Positions 24,232 through 34,708 of a stretch of DNA of 64,000 bases are shown here, one piece after another (within the stretch, counting starts at the first letter, position 1; each line of letters starts with the position of its first letter). This DNA comes from Arthrobacter sp. zg-Y844 (GTDB lineage: Bacteria > Actinomycetota > Actinomycetes > Actinomycetales > Micrococcaceae), in assembly GCF_024385465.1 (NCBI RefSeq), contig NZ_JANFLS010000003.1, positions 1-64,000 on the forward strand. Direction: 5' to 3'. The notes under the pieces were generated by a model. The model saw only the letters and a list, made by a program, of their open reading frames with translations, made no database searches and was not told the origin of the DNA. Made by a program: the position numbers and the translations under genes.

Positions 24232-25314
24232 GTGAACATTCCTATGCTTCCGGACCGCACGTGGGCCGAGACCGCCATCCGCCGCATCGAGGCCGAGGGG
24301 GCACGCTCGGCGGACACGCATCTGTTCCAGGTCCCGGTCCCGGCCGGCTGGTCAGTGCAGATCTACCTGAAGGACGAGTCCACCCATCGCACCGGCAGCC
24401 TCAAGCACCGGCTGGCCCGCTCCCTCTTCCTCTTCGGCCTGGTCAACGGCTGGATCACCGAGGGCACCACCATCGTGGAGGCTTCCAGCGGTTCCACCGC
24501 TGTGTCGGAGGCTTACTTCGCCCAACTGCTGGGGCTGCCGTTCGTGGCCGTGATGCCGCAGACCACTAGTGCGGAGAAGATCCGGCTGATCGAGCACTAC
24601 GGCGGGCGCTGCCACTTCGTCGAGGAGCCTTCGGAGGTGTACGCCGCCGCGGAGGCCGTCGCGGCCAGCACCGGCGGGCACTACATGGACCAGTTCACGT
24701 ACGCAGAACGCGCCACTGACTGGCGGGGCAACAACAATATTGCCGAGTCGATCTTTTCCCAGATGGCCCAGGAGGACCATCCGCTGCCGGACTGGATAGT
24801 GGTGGGTGCCGGGACCGGCGGGACAAGTGCAACGATCGGCCGCTATATCCGTTATCACCGGTATCCCACCCGCCTGGCTGTCGTGGATCCGGAGAACTCG
24901 GCGTTTTTCCCCGCCTGGCAGAATCCGGGGGAGCCCGCGGCCGGAAGGCCCTCCCGGATTGAAGGTATCGGCCGGCCGCGGCCGGAACCCAGCTTCGTTC
25001 CGGCGGTAATCGACCACATGATCCAGGTCCCGGACGCCGCATCTGTGGCTGCTTCCCGGCACCTGAGGCGGCTCACCGGGCTGCATGCCGGCCCCTCCAC
25101 CGGCACCAATCTCTGGGGGGTCTGGCAGCTGGCCGCCGCCATGGAAGCGGACGGCCGTGCCGGAAGCATCGTCTCGCTTGTGTGCGATTCCGGGGACCGG
25201 TACACCGCTTCCTACGGCGACGACGCCTGGCTGGCGTCCCGCGGACTGGACCCGGACCGGGCCACAGCCGTGCTGGAGGAACTGTTCCGGACCGGGCGGT
25301 GGCCTGCGGGCTGA
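24232..25314 (+). CDS. PLP-dependent cysteine synthase family protein, Cds1/L-cysteine desulfhydrase-like
   Basis: A 360-residue fold-type II PLP enzyme. Lys58 in TGSLKHR is the probable Schiff-base lysine; the Ser/Gly phosphate loop is [14 protein letters not shown], and ASSGST is the substrate-binding block. Long actinobacterial members with an extended C-terminus, such as mycobacterial Cds1, are L-cysteine desulfhydrases making pyruvate, ammonia and hydrogen sulfide. Similarity to those is from memory. It is divergent from the oxidoreductase and precedes the GntR-controlled importer operon without belonging to it. An O-acetylserine sulfhydrylase role is an alternative. Confidence 0.75.
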
Positions 25315-25375: not shown

Positions 25376-25387
25376 ATTGTTGACAAT
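25376..25387 (+). promoter_or_regulatory. GntR operator copy 1 within the ABC importer promoter
   Basis: The palindrome ATTGTTGACAAT. Its TTGACA (25380-25385) doubles as a -35 box; 17 bases on is TACCGT (25403-25408), a plausible -10. A repressor bound here would block RNA polymerase. The importer start lies 67 bases downstream. It is identical (reverse complement) to three other copies at 30028, 30880 and 31750, and fits the GntR-family pattern yGT-N-ACy. Confidence 0.75.
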
Positions 25388-25453: not shown

Positions 25454-26431
25454 ATGAAGCCAATTCTTAGGATGCTCGCCGCCTCCACTGCGGTCCTGGC
25501 TCTTGCCGCCTGCGGCTCGGGGTCGCCCAGCGGGGAGGCCGAAGACACCGGCGAGGCCGGTGGCGGGGACCTCACCCAGGTGACGGTCGGAGTCATCCCC
25601 ATCGTCGACGTGGCACCGATCTACCTCGGCGTCCAGGAGGGCTTCTTCGAAGCGGAAGGCCTGGAGCTGGAACTGCAGCCGGCCCAGGGCGGCGCGGCCA
25701 TTGTTCCGGCCGTCATGAGCGGCAGCATGGACTTCGGCTTCAGCAACATTTCCTCGATGCTGGTGGCCAAGTCCAAGGGCCTGGATGTGCAGGTGGTGAC
25801 CGCCGGAGCGGCGTCGACAGGCGAGGACGGCGCCGATTTCGGCGGCATCCTGGTTAACCCGGATGCCGGGATCGAAACGGCGGCGGACCTTGCGGGCAAG
25901 AAGGTCGCCGTGAACACGCTCAACAACATCAACGACACCACCGTCCGCGCGGCCGTGCGCAAGGCAGGCGGAGACCCGTCAGGCATCGAGTTCGTTGAGC
26001 TGGCCTTCCCCGATATGCAGGCTGCCCTGGAACGCGGCCAGGTGGATGCCATCCAGGTGGTGGAACCCTTCCTGACGGGCGGGCAGAATGCCGGGTCCGT
26101 TCCGATCGCTTCCAACTATGTGGATACCGCGGAGGACCTCGCCGTCGGCGCCTACTTCACGACGTCGGCGAAGGCCGAGGACGATGCGGAAACGGTGGAG
26201 AAATTCACGGCGGCCATGAACAAGTCCTTGGAATACGCGGAGGAGAACCCGGACGCCGTCCGCGAGGTCCTGCTCACCTACACGAAGATCGACGCCGAGA
26301 CCGCCAACGCCCTTACCCTGCCCAGCTTCACCACGGAGATCAACCGTGCCGGCGTGGAAACGCTTGCGGAGCTCTCACTCAGTGACGGTCTGATCAGTGA
26401 AGAGCCGAAGCTGGATGAGTTGCTGCCGTAA
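25454..26431 (+). CDS. ABC transporter substrate-binding lipoprotein (NMT1/SsuA/TauA type)
   Basis: A 325-residue solute-binding lipoprotein. The signal peptide ends in a lipobox LALAAC with the lipidated Cys20. The mature part matches the NMT1/THI5-like group (VTVGVIPIVDVAPIYLGVQ, then GAAIVPAVMSGSMDFGFSN), which binds nitrate, sulfonates, thiamine precursors or aromatic acids such as phthalate. The ATG at 25454 has GGGGA six bases before it; an ATG two codons upstream is possible. First gene of a four-gene importer operon. Given the downstream aromatic genes and shared operator, an aromatic carboxylate is the likely ligand (inference). Confidence 0.85.
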   Translation: MKPILRMLAASTAVLALAACGSGSPSGEAEDTGEAGGGDLTQVTVGVIPIVDVAPIYLGVQEGFFEAEGLELELQPAQGGAAIVPAVMSGSMDFGFSNISSMLVAKSKGLDVQVVTAGAASTGEDGADFGGILVNPDAGIETAADLAGKKVAVNTLNNINDTTVRAAVRKAGGDPSGIEFVELAFPDMQAALERGQVDAIQVVEPFLTGGQNAGSVPIASNYVDTAEDLAVGAYFTTSAKAEDDAETVEKFTAAMNKSLEYAEENPDAVREVLLTYTKIDAETANALTLPSFTTEINRAGVETLAELSLSDGLISEEPKLDELLP

Positions 26432-27270
26432 TGAGTACCGAAGTGCTGGAACCCGGCCGGGCTGCGCAGCCACGCGCAGCCCGGCCGGGTGCGCGCCGTT
26501 CCGTGCCGAAACCGGTGCTGGGCCTGGTCGGGGTCCTCGGTTTCCTGCTGATCTGGGAACTGGTTCCAAGGCTCGGCCTGGTCCAGCCCCGCTTCCTGCC
26601 CCCTGCCTCGGAAGTCATCATGGCCCTCGTCCGGGACTTCGGGCTGACTGCCTTCTGGGTGGCCGTGGGGCACACCCTGATGGCCTGGGCCATTGGCCTG
26701 GCAGCCGCCGTCGTCGCCGCCGGCATCCTGGGCCTGGTGATCGGCATGAGCCCGTTCCTCCGACGGTTCACCAACTCCACCATCGAGTTCCTGCGCCCGG
26801 TTCCCTCGGTGGCCCTGATCCCGCTGGCCGTGCTGCTGTTCGGCGTCAAAATCGAATCCTCGCTGATGCTGATCATCTACGCCTGCTTCTGGCAGGTGCT
26901 GATCCAGGTGCTCTACGGGGTGGCCGACGTCGACAACGTGGCAACGCAGACGGCACAGTCCTACGGCTTCTCCAAGCTGCAGCGGATCCGGCACGTGGTG
27001 TTTCCCACCGTGCTGCCGTACCTGATGACGGGCATCCGTCTGGCGGCCTCCGTGGCGCTGATCCTGGCCATCACCGCCGAGCTGATCATCGGCTCGCCCG
27101 GGCTCGGGCGTGAGATTGCGGACGCCCAGTCCGGCGGAGCCATCTCCGGCATGTATGCCCTGGTGCTGGCCACCGGCCTGCTGGGCGTGGCGATCAATAT
27201 CGTGATGCGCCAGGTCGAGCAGCGCCTGTTGTCCTGGCATCCGTCCGTCCGCGGAGAGGTGGTGCTGTGA
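26431..27270 (+). CDS. ABC transporter permease (SsuC/TauC type), first of two
   Basis: A 279-residue inner-membrane permease with about six helices after a 25-residue cytoplasmic tail. The permease EAA loop is at QSYGFSKLQRIRHVVFPTVLPYLMTGIRL (the usual EAA----G is degenerate: AQSYG). It overlaps the binding-protein stop codon by one base and the next permease by four, so the operon is tightly coupled. It probably pairs with the next gene as a heterodimeric channel. Confidence 0.88.
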   Translation: MSTEVLEPGRAAQPRAARPGARRSVPKPVLGLVGVLGFLLIWELVPRLGLVQPRFLPPASEVIMALVRDFGLTAFWVAVGHTLMAWAIGLAAAVVAAGILGLVIGMSPFLRRFTNSTIEFLRPVPSVALIPLAVLLFGVKIESSLMLIIYACFWQVLIQVLYGVADVDNVATQTAQSYGFSKLQRIRHVVFPTVLPYLMTGIRLAASVALILAITAELIIGSPGLGREIADAQSGGAISGMYALVLATGLLGVAINIVMRQVEQRLLSWHPSVRGEVVL

Positions 27271-28040
27271 AGACGCTCAAGAGCCTTGCCTACGTGGTTG
27301 CGCTGCCCCTGCTGCTGGTGCTCCTGTGGTGGGCTTCCACCCGGGGCGAACCGAACTTCTTCGTACCCACCCCGTCCGCTCTGGTGGATGTCTTCGGTCC
27401 CACCTGGTTTGAGGGGCGGATCACCGGGGATGTCCTGCCGTCGCTGGGAAGGCTGCTCGCCGGGCTCGCCATCGCGATCATCCTTGGCATCGTCGTCGGG
27501 CTGCTGGTGGGCCTGAACCGGACGCTGCGGGCGCTGACCGAACCCGTGTTCGAGTTCTTCCGTGCCCTGCCGCCTCCGGTGCTGGTTCCGGTGCTGATCC
27601 TGCTGGTGGGCCTGAATGACGGCATGAAGGTTGCCGTGATTGTGGTCGGCTGCATTTGGCCGGTGCTGTTGAACACCATCGAAGGGGTGCGCTCCATTGA
27701 TCCGGTGCAGAACGAAACGACCCGGTCCTACGGCATCTCCGGGATGAACCGGATCCGCTACCAGGTGCTGCCGTCTGCCGCGCCGACGATCATGGCCGGC
27801 ATCCGGCAGTCGCTGTCCATCGGCCTGATCCTCATGGTCATTTCGGAAATGTTCGGTTCCTCCTCGGGACTGGGCTTCACTATTCTGCAGTTCCAGCGGT
27901 CCTTCGCCATCCCGGAAATGTGGTCCGGCATCCTGGTGCTCGGCCTGATCGGCCTGGCCCTGTCCCTGATCTTCCAATGGTGCGAACGGCGCGTGCTGCG
28001 CTGGTACCACGGCCTTAAAGAGGTAGAAAATGCAGCCTGA
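27267..28040 (+). CDS. ABC transporter permease (SsuC/TauC type), second of two
   Basis: A 257-residue permease starting at GTG inside the end of the previous gene (GTGA overlap). About six membrane helices; the EAA loop is RSYGISGMNRIRYQVLPSAAP with the conserved glycine. Sequence differs clearly from the first permease, so this is not a recent duplicate. Two different permeases are less usual for the sulfonate/taurine importers, which normally use one, and may mark a substrate subgroup. Confidence 0.88.
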   Translation: MKTLKSLAYVVALPLLLVLLWWASTRGEPNFFVPTPSALVDVFGPTWFEGRITGDVLPSLGRLLAGLAIAIILGIVVGLLVGLNRTLRALTEPVFEFFRALPPPVLVPVLILLVGLNDGMKVAVIVVGCIWPVLLNTIEGVRSIDPVQNETTRSYGISGMNRIRYQVLPSAAPTIMAGIRQSLSIGLILMVISEMFGSSSGLGFTILQFQRSFAIPEMWSGILVLGLIGLALSLIFQWCERRVLRWYHGLKEVENAA

Positions 28041-28905
28041 CGCCATCTCCGCCAAAACCACTCCGGCACCGGAAGGCACCGCACCGTCCGGGCGCACGCT
28101 GCCCGAGGGGGAAGCGCTGCTTTCGGTCCGCGGGCTGAAAAAGGTCTACTCCACCGACGGCGGCCCCATCGAAGCCGTCCGCAACCTCACCTTCGACCTG
28201 GGGCACGGCGAGCTGGCCTGCCTGGTCGGTCCCTCCGGCTCCGGCAAGACCACCCTGCTCAAGTGCATCGCGGGACTGCTCGGAGCCACCGAGGGCGAAG
28301 TGCTGCTCGACGGCAAGAAGGTGACGGCGCCGCCCAAGAAAATGGCGGTGGTCTTCCAGGAATACGGCCGCTCCCTGTTTCCCTGGCTGCGGGTCGCGGA
28401 CAACGTGGAGCTGCCCCTGAAGAACGCCGGCGTGCCCAAAGCGGAACGCCGGCAGCGGGTAGCCGACGCGCTGGAGGCGGTGGGGCTGGAGCACGTGCCC
28501 AAGTCCTACCCCTGGCAGCTGTCGGGAGGCATGCAGCAGCGCGTGGCCATCGCCCGTGCGGTGGCGTACCAGCCGGAGGTGCTGCTGATGGACGAGCCGT
28601 TTGCCGCCGTCGACGCCCAGACCCGCGCCGATCTGGAGGACCTTACCCGGCGGCTGTGGAAGGACCTGGGCATGACCATCCTGTTCGTCACGCACGACAT
28701 CGACGAATCCGTGTACCTCGGTGAACGCGTCATCATCCTGTCCTCCTCGCCCACCGTGGTGCAGGAGGACATCCTGATCGACCTCCCGGAGGACCGTGAC
28801 CAGCTGGAGACCCGGGGGATGCCGCGCTTCACCGAGCTGCGCCATCACGTCTACGAGCAGATCCAGCTCGCCAAGAAGGGCCACCGGCCGGACGCGGCGC
28901 GCTGA
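28030..28905 (+). CDS. ABC transporter ATP-binding protein (SsuB/TauB type)
   Basis: A 291-residue ATPase for the importer. Walker A GPSGSGKTT follows LACLV, the signature is LSGGMQQRVAIARA, Walker B is VLLMDEPFAAVD and the H-loop is ILFVTHDIDESVYL. Residues 1 to about 35 form an extra Pro/Ala/Glu-rich leader absent from shorter homologues. It overlaps the preceding permease by 11 bases and is the last gene before a strong terminator. Confidence 0.92.
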   Translation: MQPDAISAKTTPAPEGTAPSGRTLPEGEALLSVRGLKKVYSTDGGPIEAVRNLTFDLGHGELACLVGPSGSGKTTLLKCIAGLLGATEGEVLLDGKKVTAPPKKMAVVFQEYGRSLFPWLRVADNVELPLKNAGVPKAERRQRVADALEAVGLEHVPKSYPWQLSGGMQQRVAIARAVAYQPEVLLMDEPFAAVDAQTRADLEDLTRRLWKDLGMTILFVTHDIDESVYLGERVIILSSSPTVVQEDILIDLPEDRDQLETRGMPRFTELRHHVYEQIQLAKKGHRPDAAR

Positions 28906-28918
28906 GCCCGGTAGGACA

Positions 28919-28960
28919 AACGACGGCGGCCCCTCCCGCGAAGGAGGGGCCGCCGTCGTT
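28919..28960. terminator. Bidirectional terminator between importer operon and dioxygenase
   Basis: An 18-bp perfect stem (AACGACGGCGGCCCCTCC at 28919-28936 with 28943-28960) and loop CGCGAA lies between the convergent ATPase and dioxygenase genes. It can serve both. Confidence 0.85.
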
Positions 28961-28969
28961 ATGCCGGGC

Positions 28970-29932
28970 TCAGTCGGCGGGAAGCTCCACCGGGGGAGTG
29001 CCGTGGGTATGGAAGGTGTCGATGGTCTTCATGCCCCAGGCCTGGCCCTTGGCGCGCTCCGCCTCGGTCCATTCGATGGTTTTCCAGTCCGGTGCCAGGA
29101 TCAGGCGGGCACCGGCGTTGCAGAATTCGATCCGGTTGCCGCCGGGCTCATACACATACAGGAAAAAGGTCTGCTGGATGGCGTGTTTGTGCGGCCCGGT
29201 TTCGATGTGGATGCCGTTTTCGAGGAAGATGTCCGCAGCCTTGAGGATGTCTTCGCGGGTGTCGGTGGCGAACGCGACGTGGTGCAGCCGGCCGCTGCTG
29301 CCGGTCCAGTCACCGCTGTACACCAGGTCATAGGACTTGTTGGAGAAGGTGAACCACTGGCCGGAAAGCCTGCCGTTGTCCAGCCGGATCTGTTCGGTGG
29401 GCTTGCCGCCCAGCACCTCTTCCACGAACCGGCCGTTCTCGGCAACGTCTGCGCCGAGGAAATTGACGTGGTCCAGCCGGCGGGCGTTCACGCCGCGGCC
29501 CGGGAAGCGGTCCGCCTGGTTCTTCAAGGCCGGCCGGGACTCTTCGGTGGGCACATGCCATTCGCTGTCAAAGTAGATGTCCATCGGATGCCCGTCCGGA
29601 TCCGTGAAGGCGTAGGTCTTGCCCATGCCCGGGCCGCCGTCGTGCCAGCCGACTCCGCGTCCTGCCGCCTCGATGGCCGCAACGCGCCGTTGCAGCGCCT
29701 CTTCGCTGGCGGCGCGCAGGCCCAGGCGTCCGACGCCGGAAGTCTCGTGGGCGGTGAGTTTGATGGTGTGGTGTTCGTAGTCGTCCCACGCGTGCAGGTA
29801 GGCGGAATCGCCCTCTCGGGCGACTTCGCGCATTGCCAGCAGTTCGGTGAAGAACCACAGGCTCTTGTCGAAATCCGGGGTATAGAGTTCCACGAAGCCC
29901 AGATGGGCTACGTCGCGAAAAGCATCAGGCAT
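28970..29932 (-). CDS. Type I extradiol ring-cleavage dioxygenase (VOC family, catechol 2,3-dioxygenase-like)
   Basis: A 320-residue two-module VOC (glyoxalase/bleomycin-fold) protein. The C-terminal module keeps the 2-His-1-carboxylate iron ligands: His155 in RRLDHVNFLG, His217/218 in RLHHVAFAT, and Glu269 in GGNRIEF. A conserved TFFLYVYEPGG precedes the glutamate. The start at 29932 follows AAGGAAACCGC; the frame extends 11 codons upstream. Expected to open a catecholic ring next to the diol. It has its own promoter with an operator copy at 30028. Linked lower-pathway genes point to an aromatic acid whose cleavage leads to 4-oxalomesaconate, such as gallate or a protocatechuate relative; the true substrate is unknown. 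Confidence 0.82.
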   Translation of the reverse strand: MPDAFRDVAHLGFVELYTPDFDKSLWFFTELLAMREVAREGDSAYLHAWDDYEHHTIKLTAHETSGVGRLGLRAASEEALQRRVAAIEAAGRGVGWHDGGPGMGKTYAFTDPDGHPMDIYFDSEWHVPTEESRPALKNQADRFPGRGVNARRLDHVNFLGADVAENGRFVEEVLGGKPTEQIRLDNGRLSGQWFTFSNKSYDLVYSGDWTGSSGRLHHVAFATDTREDILKAADIFLENGIHIETGPHKHAIQQTFFLYVYEPGGNRIEFCNAGARLILAPDWKTIEWTEAERAKGQAWGMKTIDTFHTHGTPPVELPAD

Positions 29933-30027
29933 TGCGGTTTCCTTTGCGGTCTGCTGAAACGGCACGGGCTTCGTTGCCGGCCTGCCGGTCCCGAAGCAGT
30001 GCTGAGAGTCAATCAGCGGCCCCGGGT

Positions 30028-30039
30028 ATTGTCAACAAT
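30028..30039 (-). promoter_or_regulatory. GntR operator copy 2 upstream of the dioxygenase
   Basis: ATTGTCAACAAT, 95 bases before the dioxygenase start and 17 bases past the stop of the upstream dehydrogenase gene on the same strand. On the minus strand it supplies a TTGACA -35 box (30035-30030); the -10 at about 30012-30007 is poor (TTGACT). Confidence 0.7.
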
Positions 30040-30056
30040 TTCGCAGACAATGCAGG

Positions 30057-30839
30057 TCAGGCGGGGCCGGTGCCGCCAGCTGCCAGTGCGGACAACCAGC
30101 TGAATGTGCCTTCCGTCATCCAGGCAGGTGTGCCCAGTCCGCGGAGGTACGCCAAGGAGTCTGCGACCTCGTGTGCACGCCGCACGGCGTGCGTTTCCGA
30201 GCCCTGAAGGAGCCGGGCCACCAGGTCCGGCCCGTCCGGGCCCAGCTCCCCGGCGATTTCCGCCAGGAGCCACTCCTCCGCGCCGGCTGCTTTTCCGGCT
30301 GCCCGGCATTCCAGTACCAGACCCGCCAGTCCCTTCATGAAGACACTGCGCAGCAGCTTACGGCCCGCCGCGGCGCCGGGGGCACCGGGGATCGTTTCCA
30401 CCGGGGTGCCGAAGCCTTCCATCAGGGCGGCAAACCTGTCCGCCGCGGTGCCGCTGACAAGGAGCGGGGTTCGGCTGCCGGCCCGGGGGACGGGCGCCAT
30501 GACGGCCACGTCCACCAGGGCCACTCCATAGCCTGCGGAGAGTTCGGCAAGTGCGGCTTTGTCCTCCGGGCCGGCGGTGTTGAAATCCGCGAACACGGCG
30601 TTCGAGGGAAGCAGCGGAAGTATCTGCTCCGCGACGCTGCGCGCGGCGGCGGCGCCGACCAGGCTGATGGCCAGATCCGTTCCGTCAACGGATTCGGCAA
30701 GCGAGTCGAACTGGCGGATGCCGGCGTCGCGTGCGTCGGTGTACGGGTCGTAGCCGCGTACGTCCGCCCCGGCCTCGGCCAGGCCCAGTGCGTACAGGCG
30801 TCCGGCTTCGCCCAGGCCCAGTACGGTCACCGCAGTCAT
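30057..30839 (-). CDS. NAD(P)-dependent dehydrogenase, 6PGDH-like with DUF1932 C-terminus
   Basis: A 260-residue protein with an N-terminal NAD(P) Rossmann domain (VTVLGLGEAG, Gly8-x-Gly10-x-x-Gly13, then DVRGYDP) as in 6-phosphogluconate and 3-hydroxyisobutyrate dehydrogenases, and a C-terminal helical DUF1932 domain (from about 165, with KAAGAEEWLLAEI). The start at 30839 has GAGAGGACACAACC before it. It is divergent from the GntR gene with an operator copy in between. Catalysis on a hydroxy- or semialdehyde carboxylate of the aromatic pathway is likely but unproven; it is not the GFO/IDH-type LigC. Confidence 0.75.
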   Translation of the reverse strand: MTAVTVLGLGEAGRLYALGLAEAGADVRGYDPYTDARDAGIRQFDSLAESVDGTDLAISLVGAAAARSVAEQILPLLPSNAVFADFNTAGPEDKAALAELSAGYGVALVDVAVMAPVPRAGSRTPLLVSGTAADRFAALMEGFGTPVETIPGAPGAAAGRKLLRSVFMKGLAGLVLECRAAGKAAGAEEWLLAEIAGELGPDGPDLVARLLQGSETHAVRRAHEVADSLAYLRGLGTPAWMTEGTFSWLSALAAGGTGPA

Positions 30840-30879
30840 GGTTGTGTCCTCTCGTAGCTGTCCGCCGATTATTGCCATG

Positions 30880-30891
30880 ATTGTCAACAAT
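30880..30891. promoter_or_regulatory. GntR operator copy 3 between dehydrogenase and gntR genes
   Basis: ATTGTCAACAAT in the 160-base divergent spacer, 41 bases before the dehydrogenase start and 109 bases before the GntR start. On the minus strand it carries TTGACA (30887-30882). It may control both directions, giving autoregulation. Confidence 0.72.
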
Positions 30892-30999
30892 TCCAAGCTG
30901 CGGCCGCCCGCCGGGGGCTGGGGGACTGTGATGCAGTGATAACTTGGCGTGACACCAAAAATGAGGGCGGGCGGGTGCCGTTTCGCCGAGGAGCTTCAA

Positions 31000-31665
31000 A
31001 TGACAGCAGATGCAGCAGCGACCACGAGTAACGCTGCGCAGGTGGCGGACGCAATCCGCACGGCAATTCTTGACGGCGAGCTGGTGCCGTCCCAACGGCT
31101 CGTGGAGGCGGACCTGTGCACGCAGTTCAAGGCGAGCCGCAGTGCGGTCCGCTCCGCCCTTGCCGAGCTCGCCGTCGAGGGCGTGGTGGAGCGGGTGCAG
31201 AACCGCGGAGCCCGCGTGCGGTCGGTGCCCGTGGAAGAAGCCGTAGAGATCATTGAGGTCCGCGGCGTGCTGGAGGCGCTGTGTGCCCGCAAGGCAGCGG
31301 AGCGGATTGATGCCGGGCAGGTCTCCGAACTCCGGCAGATGGCCGACGACATGGCGTCCGCCGTAAAGGCCGGCGAACTGATGCGCTACTCGGAGATCAA
31401 TTCCAGGCTCCATCGGCGGATCGTGGAAATCAGCGGTCAGGGAACCGCCGGAGCCACCATCGAAAGGCTGCGGGCACAGAATGTGCGCCACCAGTTCCGG
31501 CTCGCGGTCCAGCCTGGGCGTGCCAACGTTTCGCTGCCGGAACACGTGGAAATCATTGAAGCCATCTGCGCCGGGCAGGGCGAGCAGGCTGCCCGCATGA
31601 TGGAGACCCACATGGCGAGCATTGCCGACGCCATCCGCCGGACAGGCTCAGCGCCCCCGCACTAA
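31000..31665 (+). CDS. GntR family transcriptional regulator (FadR/FCD subfamily)
   Basis: A 221-residue regulator. The N-terminal winged helix-turn-helix (about 20-80) includes QVADAIRTAILDGELVPSQR and the recognition helix region ASRSAVRSALAELAVEGVVE; the FCD effector-binding domain (about 85-215) has the all-helical layout with metal-type His residues (LHRRI, RHQFR, SLPEHVEII). The ATG at 31000 is behind GAGGAG with a six-base spacer; the longer frame has no such site. It sits at the centre of four identical palindromes and is the obvious candidate to bind them, probably as a repressor released by a pathway acid. Confidence 0.9.
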   Translation: MTADAAATTSNAAQVADAIRTAILDGELVPSQRLVEADLCTQFKASRSAVRSALAELAVEGVVERVQNRGARVRSVPVEEAVEIIEVRGVLEALCARKAAERIDAGQVSELRQMADDMASAVKAGELMRYSEINSRLHRRIVEISGQGTAGATIERLRAQNVRHQFRLAVQPGRANVSLPEHVEIIEAICAGQGEQAARMMETHMASIADAIRRTGSAPPH

Positions 31666-31749
31666 GACGCGTAGTATGCCTAGCCGCCGCCAATCGAACG
31701 CACGGCACGGTTAGCGGCTGCTGCTCCGCTATTTGTCTTTGTCACCGTT

Positions 31750-31780
31750 ATTGTCAACAATCTGGTTGACGAGGTACATT
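31750..31780 (+). promoter_or_regulatory. GntR operator copy 4 and promoter of the ligJK operon
   Basis: The palindrome ATTGTCAACAAT (31750-31761) contains TTGTCA (31751-31756), a -35-like box; 18 bases on is TACATT (31775-31780), a good -10. Start of transcription would fall near 31786, right at the GTG start codons (31784 and 31787), so the mRNA may be leaderless. Confidence 0.72.
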
Positions 31781-31783
31781 CTT

Positions 31784-32980
31784 GTGGTGCAGACCACAGA
31801 AAAGTCCTCGGTGCCGGGTTCCGTCCGCGGCAGCCAGTTCGGCATCCCCTGCTGGTTCATGCGGGGAGGAACCTCCCGCGGACCCTTCTTCCGTCGCACC
31901 GACCTGCCGGCTGACCTGCACGGCGAACGCCGGGACGAGGTGCTGCTTGCCGCCCTCGGATCTCCCCACCCGCTGCAGATTGACGGGCTGGGAGGCGGTA
32001 ATCCGCTCACCAGCAAGGTGGGGATCGTGGACGTCAGCAGCCGGGACGGGGTGGACCTGGAGTTCCAGTTCGCGCAGCTGCAACCAACTTCCGACACCGT
32101 GGATACCACGGCCAACTGCGGAAACATGCTCGCCGCCGTCGTTCCGTTCGCCGTGGAGTCCGGCCTCCTTCTGCCCGGCGGGGATACCACCACCGCCCGG
32201 GTCCTGACGCTGAACACGGGCATGGTGGCCGAAATCAGCATCGCGACGCCGGCAGGGGACCAGGGCCGGTTTGTCGAGTACGGCGGGGATACGCGGATCG
32301 ACGGCGTTCCCGGCACGGCGGCGGCAGTCACCATCAACTTCCTGGACACGGCCGGTTCCGTCTGTGCCTCCCTGCTTCCCACCGGCAATGCCAGCGACAC
32401 GGTGGTTCTCGACGGCGTAGGTCCGGTCCGCGTCACCTGCATCGACAACGGCCAACCGCTGGTGATGGTCCGGGCCACGGACCTGGACCGCACCGGCTAC
32501 GAATCCGCCGCCGAGTTGAACCGTGACGAAGAGCTGAAGCAGAGGCTTGAAGCACTGCGGCTCCAGTGCGGGCAGCTGATGGGGCTGGGAGACGTCACCG
32601 CCAAGAACTACCCGAAGATGACGCTGGTAGCCCCGCCGGCATACGGCGGCACCATCACCACCCGCAGCTTCATCCCGCATGTCTGCCACGAATCCATTGG
32701 CGTGCTGGCCGCCGTCACCGCTGCCACCGCGTGCGTCATTGACGGCACCGTGGTAAGGGAAGTCAGCACCGTTGCTGATGCCGGCCCCGGAGCAGACCTG
32801 ACGGTTTCGGTGGAGCATCCCTCCGGCGAATTCACCGTGGCACTCGGGCTTGACCCGCAGGACCCCCAGCACGTCACCAAATCCGCGCTGCTGCGCACCG
32901 CACGGCTGATCATGGCCGGCGAAGTTTTTGTCCCGCACCGTCTCCAGGAGGCGGCAGCAACAGAGGAGAACACCCGATGA
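31784..32980 (+). CDS. galD: 4-Oxalomesaconate tautomerase (PrpF/GalD family)
   Basis: A 398-residue PrpF-family isomerase. It shows MRGGTSRGPFF near the N-terminus, then GGGNPLTSKVGIV and DTTANCGNMLAAV with the family cysteine, the marks of GalD-type enzymes that convert keto- to enol-4-oxalomesaconate in gallate and protocatechuate 4,5-cleavage. The start is GTG at 31784 (or 31787); the frame is open upstream through the operator, which cannot be coding. It overlaps the hydratase by 4 bases (ATGA). PrpF-type aconitate isomerase is an alternative, but the neighbours argue for the oxalomesaconate role. Confidence 0.85.
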   Translation: MVQTTEKSSVPGSVRGSQFGIPCWFMRGGTSRGPFFRRTDLPADLHGERRDEVLLAALGSPHPLQIDGLGGGNPLTSKVGIVDVSSRDGVDLEFQFAQLQPTSDTVDTTANCGNMLAAVVPFAVESGLLLPGGDTTTARVLTLNTGMVAEISIATPAGDQGRFVEYGGDTRIDGVPGTAAAVTINFLDTAGSVCASLLPTGNASDTVVLDGVGPVRVTCIDNGQPLVMVRATDLDRTGYESAAELNRDEELKQRLEALRLQCGQLMGLGDVTAKNYPKMTLVAPPAYGGTITTRSFIPHVCHESIGVLAAVTAATACVIDGTVVREVSTVADAGPGADLTVSVEHPSGEFTVALGLDPQDPQHVTKSALLRTARLIMAGEVFVPHRLQEAAATEENTR

Positions 32981-34032
32981 TCATCGATTGCCACGGCCAT
33001 TACACCACCGCCCCGCCGGCCCTGGGCGACTGGCGGGACCGGCAGATTGCGGCGCTCGCCGATCCCGGAACGGCTGCTCCGGACCCGGCGGACCTGGTCA
33101 TCAGCGACGATGAACTGCGGGAAAGTATCTCCGCGAACCAGCTGCGCCTGATGGATGAGCGGGGTATCGACCTGACCATCTTCTCGCCGCGGGCCTCCTT
33201 CATGGCACACCACGTAGGGGACTTCGCCACTTCCGCCGCGTGGGCGGCCATCTGCAACGAGCTGTGCTTCCGGGTCAGCCAACTCTTCCCGGACCGGTTT
33301 GCTCCGGCCGCCATGCTGCCGCAGTCACCCGGAGTGGACCCGGCGTCCTGCATCCCGGAACTGGAACGCTGCGTCAACGAATACGGTGCCGTGGCGCTGA
33401 ACCTCAACCCGGACCCCTCCGGCGGCTACTGGACCGCCCCTCCGCTGACGGACCGCTCCTGGTACCCGATCTACGAAAAGATGATTGAGTACGGACTGCC
33501 GGCGATGATCCACGTAAGCACCAGCGTGAATCCTGCCTTCCACACCACGGGCGCCCACTACCTCAACGCGGACACCACCGCGGTGATGCAGCTGATCCAG
33601 GGGGACCTGTTCAGGGACTTCCCGGAGCTGAAGTTCGTTATTCCGCACGGCGGCGGCGCCGCGCCCTACCACTGGGGGCGCTTCCGCGGGCTGGCCATGG
33701 CACTGAAGAAGCCGCCGCTGGAGGAACACCTGCTCAACAACGTCTTTTTCGACACCTGCGTCTACCACCAGCCCGGTATCGACCTGCTGTTGGAGGTGAT
33801 GCCCACCCGGAACATCCTCTTCGCTTCCGAGATGATCGGAGCGGTGCGCGACGTCGACCCGGACACCGGGTTCAACTTCGATGACACCGGGCGGTACCTG
33901 GCTGCAGCCGGCCTGACAGGCGAGGAGCTTGCCGATATCCGCGAGAACAATGCCCGTGCCGTCTATCCGCGCCTGGATGCGCTGTTGACCCGGCAGGGCC
34001 GTGAACCCCAAAGGAGCAGCACCCATGCATGA
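32977..34032 (+). CDS. ligJ: 4-Oxalomesaconate hydratase (LigJ-type amidohydrolase)
   Basis: A 351-residue amidohydrolase-superfamily enzyme. Metal ligands: His6 and His8 in DCHGHY, later histidines in MIHVSTS and [16 protein letters not shown]. Blocks such as [31 protein letters not shown] and LNPDPSGG match, from memory, the Sphingobium LigJ hydratase closely over the full length. It adds water to 4-oxalomesaconate, giving 4-carboxy-4-hydroxy-2-oxoadipate. It is coupled at both ends to the tautomerase (4-base overlap) and the aldolase (8-base overlap). Confidence 0.93.
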
Positions 34033-34708
34033 ACTCGGAGTGGTCCACCGCAGCATCACCCGTGCCCCGCAGCCCGACGTCGAGGCCCTGGCCCCGTACG
34101 GGACCAGTACCGTGCACGAGGCCATGGGCCGGTTGGGGCTGATGCGGCCCTACATGCGCCCCGTCTACCCCGGCGCCAAACTCTGCGGCCCGGCGGTCAC
34201 CGTGCTGCTGCAGCCTGGGGACAATTGGATGCTGCACGTGGCCGTTGAACAACTCCAGCCCGGCGACGTGCTGGTGGCAGCCTGCACCACGGAGAGCGAA
34301 GACGGCTTCTTCGGCGAGCTGTTGGCAACTTCGGTGCGTGCACGCGGCGGTGTTGGTTTGGTCATCGACGGCGGCTGCCGCGACGCTGCGGCCCTGCAGG
34401 AAATGGACTTTCCCGTGTTCTCGCGTGCCATCAACTCCAAGGGCACGGTCAAGGCGACCCTGGGTTCGGTAAACGTTCCGATCGTGTGCGCCAACGCCTT
34501 GGTGAACCCCGGCGACGTGGTGGTTGCAGATGTGGACGGCGTCGTCGTCGTTCCTGCCGACCGTGCCGCAGAAGTGGCCGAGGCCTCCCGGAAGCGGGAG
34601 GACAACGAGGCGGCCAAACGCCAACGCCTCGCCGCGGGAGAACTCGGACTGGACATGTACTCGATGCGGGGACCGCTGGAAGCGGCAGGACTGCGCTACA
34701 TCGATTAG
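34025..34708 (+). CDS. ligK: 4-Carboxy-4-hydroxy-2-oxoadipate aldolase (LigK/GalC, RraA-like)
   Basis: A 227-residue class II pyruvate aldolase of the RraA/HMG aldolase family that splits 4-carboxy-4-hydroxy-2-oxoadipate to pyruvate and oxaloacetate. Typical segments: [44 protein letters not shown] (metal-site Asp) and [16 protein letters not shown]. The start at 34025 follows AAAGGAG eight bases before, inside the hydratase gene. It is the last gene of the operon; a 12-bp hairpin follows. This is the final step to central metabolism. Confidence 0.93.

Follow-up and report, generated by a model that had tools for sequence, protein, structure and literature searches.

The first 64,000 nucleotides of contig 3 (NZ_JANFLS010000003.1) of the 3.37-Mb, nine-contig genome of Arthrobacter sp. 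zg-Y844, referred to here as the window, contain a gene cluster (positions 25454 to 34708) that is very probably, judging from its sequence and its relatives, a dedicated gallate-catabolism regulon in which a type I (VOC) extradiol dioxygenase would open gallate directly to 4-oxalomesaconate (OMA). An earlier note on this DNA had suggested, as one of two possibilities, that a type I enzyme makes OMA directly from a gallate-like substrate; this is now strongly favoured by gene linkage conserved across several phyla, a common operator, neighbouring tannase and O-demethylase genes, and the failure to find LigAB, LigI or a clear LigC in this genome. The note had also spoken of a new aromatic-acid pathway, which holds for the ring-opening enzyme; the steps after ring opening are those of the already known gallate route.

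All three OMA-processing enzymes of the bacterial gallate pathway are encoded in the cluster by homology, in one operon on the forward strand, and the note's view that these lower steps are clear is borne out by profile scores and sequence identities. A GalD-type OMA tautomerase of the PrpF family (31784..32980, with a GTG start at 31784 or 31787) scores 486.3 bits against NF033377 (cut-off 440), and the 4-carboxy-4-hydroxy-2-oxoadipate (CHA) aldolase LigK/GalC (34025..34708) scores 386.5 bits against TIGR02798 (cut-off 304.5), so that both pass NCBIfam equivalog cut-offs; the aldolase is 70.0% identical to PcmE of Arthrobacter keyseri. The OMA hydratase LigJ (32977..34032) matches PF04909 and is 72.8% identical to A. 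keyseri PcmD, and has zero matches in NCBIfam.

The setting of the dioxygenase gene was compared among the best 80 of 586 relatives from a scan of genome contigs, which are hence the closest ones, counting homologues of at least 30% identity and at least 60% query coverage within 5 kb of the dioxygenase gene. OMA tautomerase is present in 70 of the 80 loci and LigK in 69. The hydratase is of the PIG-L (GalB) type in 57 loci and LigJ in 8, with neither in 15; the two were found together in none of the 80, and thus look like alternative solutions for the same step, the hydration of OMA. PIG-L is the family of GalB, the OMA hydratase of Pseudomonas putida, and one sequence record among the plasmid loci that were read labels such a gene galB. 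Other neighbours are genes for GntR (52/80), DUF1932 (23/80), LigM (17/80), the substrate-binding protein (10/80) and LigI (3/80); LigAB and LigC were each found in 0 of 80.

A survey of 248 genomes of the order (dioxygenase at E<=1e-90, tautomerase at 428 bits or more) found the dioxygenase in 15 and the tautomerase in 14, the next best tautomerase score being 316 bits; 7 of the 14 tautomerases exceed the curated 440-bit cut-off. The 13 genomes that possess both genes always have them within 2 kb of each other (Fisher P 9e-19 for co-occurrence, uncorrected for genome relatedness), and the exceptions are a tautomerase alone in one genome (G210) and a dioxygenase alone in two (G135, G177). The association extends to other phyla. 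Among the eight plasmid loci read from Alphaproteobacteria, five (L116-L119, L130) have PIG-L, VOC, LigK and tautomerase genes together and another (L131) has a LigK-tautomerase pair near the VOC gene, while two (L115, L128) have LigK in the stretch with no annotated tautomerase, the latter also with a LigJ homologue. Thermus oshimai has VOC, PIG-L and LigK genes, with no annotated tautomerase.

The palindrome ATTGTNNACAAT, to which no strand is assigned, occurs as exactly four copies in the whole genome, all of them at the promoter regions of the cluster, compared with 0.24 copies expected from base composition; a reversed control pattern gave 0 copies genome-wide. Each copy lies directly 5' of a single transcription unit or of two divergent ones: at 25376..25387 ahead of the importer operon (by 66 bp), at 30028..30039 ahead of the dioxygenase gene, at 30880..30891 in the gap that separates the divergently transcribed DUF1932 and gntR genes, and at 31750..31761 ahead of the tautomerase-LigJ-LigK operon. 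This supports the note's contention that the dioxygenase is co-regulated with the lower-pathway genes, and we infer that the cluster is a single regulon in which the GntR/FCD protein (31000..31665, forward strand, 221 amino acids, identified by profiles) is the presumed binder of the palindrome. Among the 80 related loci, ATTGTNNACAAT is present in 62, at 74 sites versus 0.05 expected from base composition, and was not found in 18. Of 12 plasmid loci in other phyla that were scanned (11 clade members and the distant L120), 11 lack it, the sole copy being in L128, and annotated LysR regulators take the place of GntR in several such loci.

The proposed gallate dioxygenase (28970..29932, reverse strand, 320 amino acids) matches only PF00903 in Pfam and has the two-module VOC fold. 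Its predicted metal ligands His155, His218 and Glu269, which would form a 2-His-1-Glu site, are conserved in 104 of 104 rows of its clade in the alignment, so the note's report of intact ligands (given there as His155, His217/218 and Glu269) stands, but the active site departs in part from the canonical arrangement. The second-shell acid-base His that corresponds to HPCD His200 and XylE His199, typical of the type I fold family rather than definitional for it, is replaced by Tyr201 in the window protein, in all 104 clade rows and in PDB 9wgj, and is kept in 3lm4, XylE, HPCD and all 8 distant rows. Lys199, Lys249 and Arg293, which may contact the carboxylate of the substrate, show no variation in this alignment. 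In the phylogenetic tree the enzyme does not cluster with enzymes of an unrelated pathway, an outcome that the note had named as a refutation, but sits in its own clade with 99/99 support. In the same tree, a paralogue from this genome (L003, G000:C1:906199-907101) clusters with homoprotocatechuate 2,3-dioxygenase; its catalytic His is intact.

To our knowledge, the routes leading to OMA are the opening of gallate and the opening of protocatechuate or 3-O-methylgallate via a pyrone; the downstream enzymes need OMA, and because type II dioxygenases, LigI and a clear LigC were not found in the genome, gallate is left. PF02900, the LigB fold of LigAB and GalA/DesB, has zero matches in the window's genome. 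LigI has no match there either, in a search run without a positive control, and the same A. keyseri query finds 69-70% identical homologues in two related loci (L006, L007) by BLAST; with LigC as the query, all hits were partial and at most 34%. The note saw no LigC or LigI homologue, and LigAB, LigC and LigI genes, for which it had advised a search elsewhere in the genome, were looked for and not found beyond those partial LigC hits. Could the enzyme instead be a type I protocatechuate 4,5-dioxygenase, with LigC replaced by some dehydrogenase that has escaped recognition, for which the DUF1932 protein is a candidate? This is highly improbable: LigJ and LigK are common to the protocatechuate 4,5 route and the DUF1932 gene carries the same operator, but the lack of a LigI match and the weak, partial LigC matches argue otherwise, and the DUF1932/NAD_binding_2 protein resembles hydroxyacid dehydrogenases, not aldehyde dehydrogenases. 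Moreover, two PF00775 intradiol-dioxygenase genes that lie side by side in the window's genome are probably PcaHG, by which protocatechuate would be handled by its usual intradiol route. Two related genomes also have LigI-LigAB-LigC in addition to the VOC gene. In one (L112) these genes lie about 12 kb from a VOC gene accompanied by a tautomerase, LigK and LigJ of its own, and therefore the VOC enzyme is not needed for protocatechuate 4,5-cleavage there, in a stretch that ends before any second LigJ or LigK could appear; the other (L042) has a complete pcm set (L133). A LigA-domain match was absent from 38 of 48 dioxygenase-bearing genomes searched, which derive from 50 of the 80 loci. An apparent swap of dioxygenase types is seen in L113 (G101), where a LigB-like type II enzyme accompanies LigJ, LigK and LigM and no VOC enzyme was found at E<=1e-90.

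The genes near the dioxygenase, and others in the same genomes, also point to gallate as the substrate. On an Agrobacterium tumefaciens plasmid (L117) the gene order is PIG-L, VOC, LigK, tautomerase and tannase (PF07519, 437.9 bits), and tannase-like genes occur in the fetched flanks of 7 of the 80 loci, two of the seven being only 29-30% identical; those of an Arthrobacter relative (L005) and of L006 were confirmed by Pfam. In L005, operator copies with one mismatch lie about 66 bp 5' of the tannase gene and also 5' of MFS transporter and GntR genes. The window's genome encodes two LigM-family O-demethylases (884.8 and 824.7 bits, cut-off 580) at G000:C4:34401-43460 (L095), which share 68% identity; next to the second, and transcribed divergently from it, lies a gene for another SsuA-type binding protein, 56% identical to that of the window. 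In the order-wide survey, LigM-family matches at E<=1e-100 are found in 9 of the 15 dioxygenase genomes versus 10 of the 233 others (P 4e-8, uncorrected for relatedness), or in 6 of 15 versus 8 of 233 when only matches above the cut-off are counted.

Several observations weigh against the assignment of this enzyme to gallate. The OMA tautomerase also serves protocatechuate 4,5-cleavage in Sphingobium and therefore is not gallate-specific. OMA tautomerase is lacking within 5 kb in 10 of the 80 loci; three of these (L011, L064, L074) end at contig ends, four have other neighbours, given below, and three (L019, L029, L071) remain. No high-scoring tautomerase was found in 2 of the 15 dioxygenase genomes of the survey (G135, G177), and no gal genes in the stretches read near two gammaproteobacterial clade members (L126 and L127, on Chimaeribacter and Pantoea plasmids). 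Operator copies were not found near the two LigM genes of the window's genome or ahead of the tannase gene of L006. A LigA-domain match is present in 10 of the 48 genomes mentioned above, a LigB-like type II gene adjoins the VOC gene in L099 (G148) and in Roseomonas (L115), and the genome of the closest relative, Arthrobacter zhaoxinii zg-Y108 (L004), encodes a LigA and LigB-like type II pair (L132) about 5-7 kb from MetF, PurU and LigM; both dioxygenase types can therefore coexist, and in such cases 3-O-methylgallate or protocatechuate may be the substrate of the type II enzyme.

Some observations favour 3-O-methylgallate as the main or an equal substrate. The VOC enzyme would then open it, as DesZ, LigAB or GalA are able to, to a methyl ester or to 2-pyrone-4,6-dicarboxylate, which would feed into these lower steps. 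In the operons of L006 and L007 (the latter from A. globiformis), LigI comes immediately after LigK, which suggests pyrone formation in those strains and suits a substrate that yields 2-pyrone-4,6-dicarboxylate. Four of the loci without a tautomerase within 5 kb (L042, L058, L069, L081) have LigM, MetF and PurU beside the dioxygenase instead and are possibly a 3-O-methylgallate version of the cluster. GalA of P. putida opens 3-O-methylgallate too, according to one report (PMC12481942). Nevertheless, this reading, the foremost rival to the gallate one, is unlikely for the window enzyme, for which 3-O-methylgallate may still be a second substrate: no LigI match was found in the genome, so a pyrone would be a dead end there unless the ester were hydrolysed otherwise, the two LigM-type demethylases would first strip the methyl group, and the tannases linked to the VOC gene in L117, L005 and L006 yield gallate.

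Also adverse are the Tyr-for-His replacement, which could signify altered chemistry, and a match to the catechol 2,3-dioxygenase profile TIGR03211 that is marginally above its cut-off (325.4 versus 320.2 bits). The latter, together with AphC and XylE as structural neighbours and aldehyde dehydrogenase genes 32-34% identical to dmpC (hydroxymuconic semialdehyde dehydrogenase) in 4 of the 80 loci, would suit a catechol or alkylcatechol 2,3-dioxygenase of the ordinary kind whose gene happens to adjoin gal genes. The chance of this is very slight: the catechol-route genes dmpE, dmpF and dmpG are found in 0 of the 80 loci, while three relatives with the catalytic His (L120, L121, L123) have dmpG and acetaldehyde dehydrogenase genes as neighbours, and the tight linkage to gal genes, the common operator and the loss of the catalytic His throughout the clade all argue against it. 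One of those relatives (L120, on a Thermus thermophilus plasmid), a 44% relative, lies beside genes for 4-hydroxybenzoate 3-monooxygenase, a carboxymuconolactone-decarboxylase-family protein and dmpG, and is maybe part of a protocatechuate meta route.

In the gallate pathway that we infer, the ABC importer probably takes up gallate or a methoxylated precursor; syringate and 3-O-methylgallate would be converted to gallate by the tetrahydrofolate-dependent LigM-type demethylases encoded elsewhere in the genome and, in relatives, tannins by tannase. The VOC dioxygenase, presumably Fe(II)-dependent, would cleave the 3,4 (equivalent to the 4,5) bond of gallate to yield OMA directly, and LigC and LigI would therefore not be needed. 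The GalD-type tautomerase, LigJ and LigK would then produce pyruvate and oxaloacetate, and the GntR/FCD regulator, by binding ATTGTNNACAAT, would control all four promoter regions.

The remaining genes of the cluster encode the importer and a dehydrogenase. The SsuA-type ABC system, a probable aromatic-acid importer on the forward strand, comprises an SsuA/NMT1-type substrate-binding protein (25454..26431, 325 amino acids; SsuA_fam 118.8 bits, under the 163.5 cut-off), two permeases (26431..27270, PF00528; and 27267..28040, with an intact frame) and an ATPase (28030..28905, identified by domain and profile searches); permeases homologous to the second adjoin the VOC gene in 7 of the 80 loci. 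The NAD_binding_2/DUF1932 dehydrogenase gene (30057..30839, reverse strand), likewise identified by domain and profile searches, is preceded by the operator and neighbours the dioxygenase gene in Actinomycetota, Alphaproteobacteria and Thermus, and no pathway step requires its product. Directly upstream of the importer, ahead of the palindrome at 25376, a gene at 24232-25314 scores 601.7 bits against L-cysteine desulfhydrase Cds1 (cut-off 600); it also adjoins the cluster in A. zhaoxinii zg-Y108, in which the entire cluster corresponds gene by gene (84-98% identity) and the dioxygenase is 97% identical.

It is likely, on comparative grounds, that these enzymes represent a widespread and so far unrecognised family of gallate dioxygenases of type I (VOC), present in Actinomycetota, Alphaproteobacteria and Deinococcota. 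The family would stand in for the type II GalA/DesB enzymes, has Tyr where both dioxygenase types have the acid-base His, is often annotated in databases as catechol 2,3-dioxygenase, and would supply the ring-opening reaction that is missing from syringate and tannin breakdown in many actinobacteria of the soil. Searches of open-licence literature found no description of a type I gallate dioxygenase, with PDB 9wgj, discussed below, as the one caveat; that literature states that DesB, and a fused PcaA that also acts on gallate, are type II and cites GalA as the prototype of an extradiol subgroup, and one study calls bacterial syringate catabolism primarily limited to sphingomonads and Firmicutes (PMC8027834). 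Ring opening of gallate is the gate from tannins and syringyl lignin into central metabolism. If the assignment is true, a convergent VOC enzyme would explain gallate opening in actinobacteria and plant-associated alphaproteobacteria, and many catechol 2,3-dioxygenase annotations would be corrected. A clade that has the metal site but Tyr in place of His is a natural test of the role of the conserved catalytic His, and lignin upgrading may gain from the enzyme a new way to make OMA or pyrone dicarboxylate.

Among known systems, HPCD and XylE have the same metal ligands as the window dioxygenase, and HPCD His248 and Tyr257 are kept as His250 and Tyr259, whereas Tyr201 stands where those enzymes have the catalytic His; AphC (7q2a) and Rhodococcus 3lm4, alkylcatechol or dihydroxybiphenyl enzymes by title, also retain that His. 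PDB 9wgj (53% identity) has Tyr at the same position, branches at the base of the Tyr clade in the tree as drawn and was deposited as 'Catechol 1,2-dioxygenase'; no paper for this code was found in the open-licence literature. The pcm cluster of A. keyseri, for protocatechuate 4,5-cleavage, shares LigJ and LigK at the identities given above and likewise has an ABC importer nearby, but it encodes a type II LigAB fusion, a LigC-type dehydrogenase (Gfo/Idh/MocA) and a further amidohydrolase of the LigI type, all three of which the window cluster lacks. The gal cluster of P. putida, consisting of GalA, GalB, GalC and GalD under a LysR-type regulator, has the same lower route of OMA tautomerase, hydratase and CHA aldolase, with a PIG-L hydratase like that of the 57 related loci. 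It differs from the cluster of this strain in its hydratase (PIG-L rather than LigJ), in its regulator (LysR-type rather than GntR/FCD) and in its ring-opening enzyme, GalA being a type II (LigB-fold) dioxygenase and the window enzyme a type I dioxygenase of the VOC fold.

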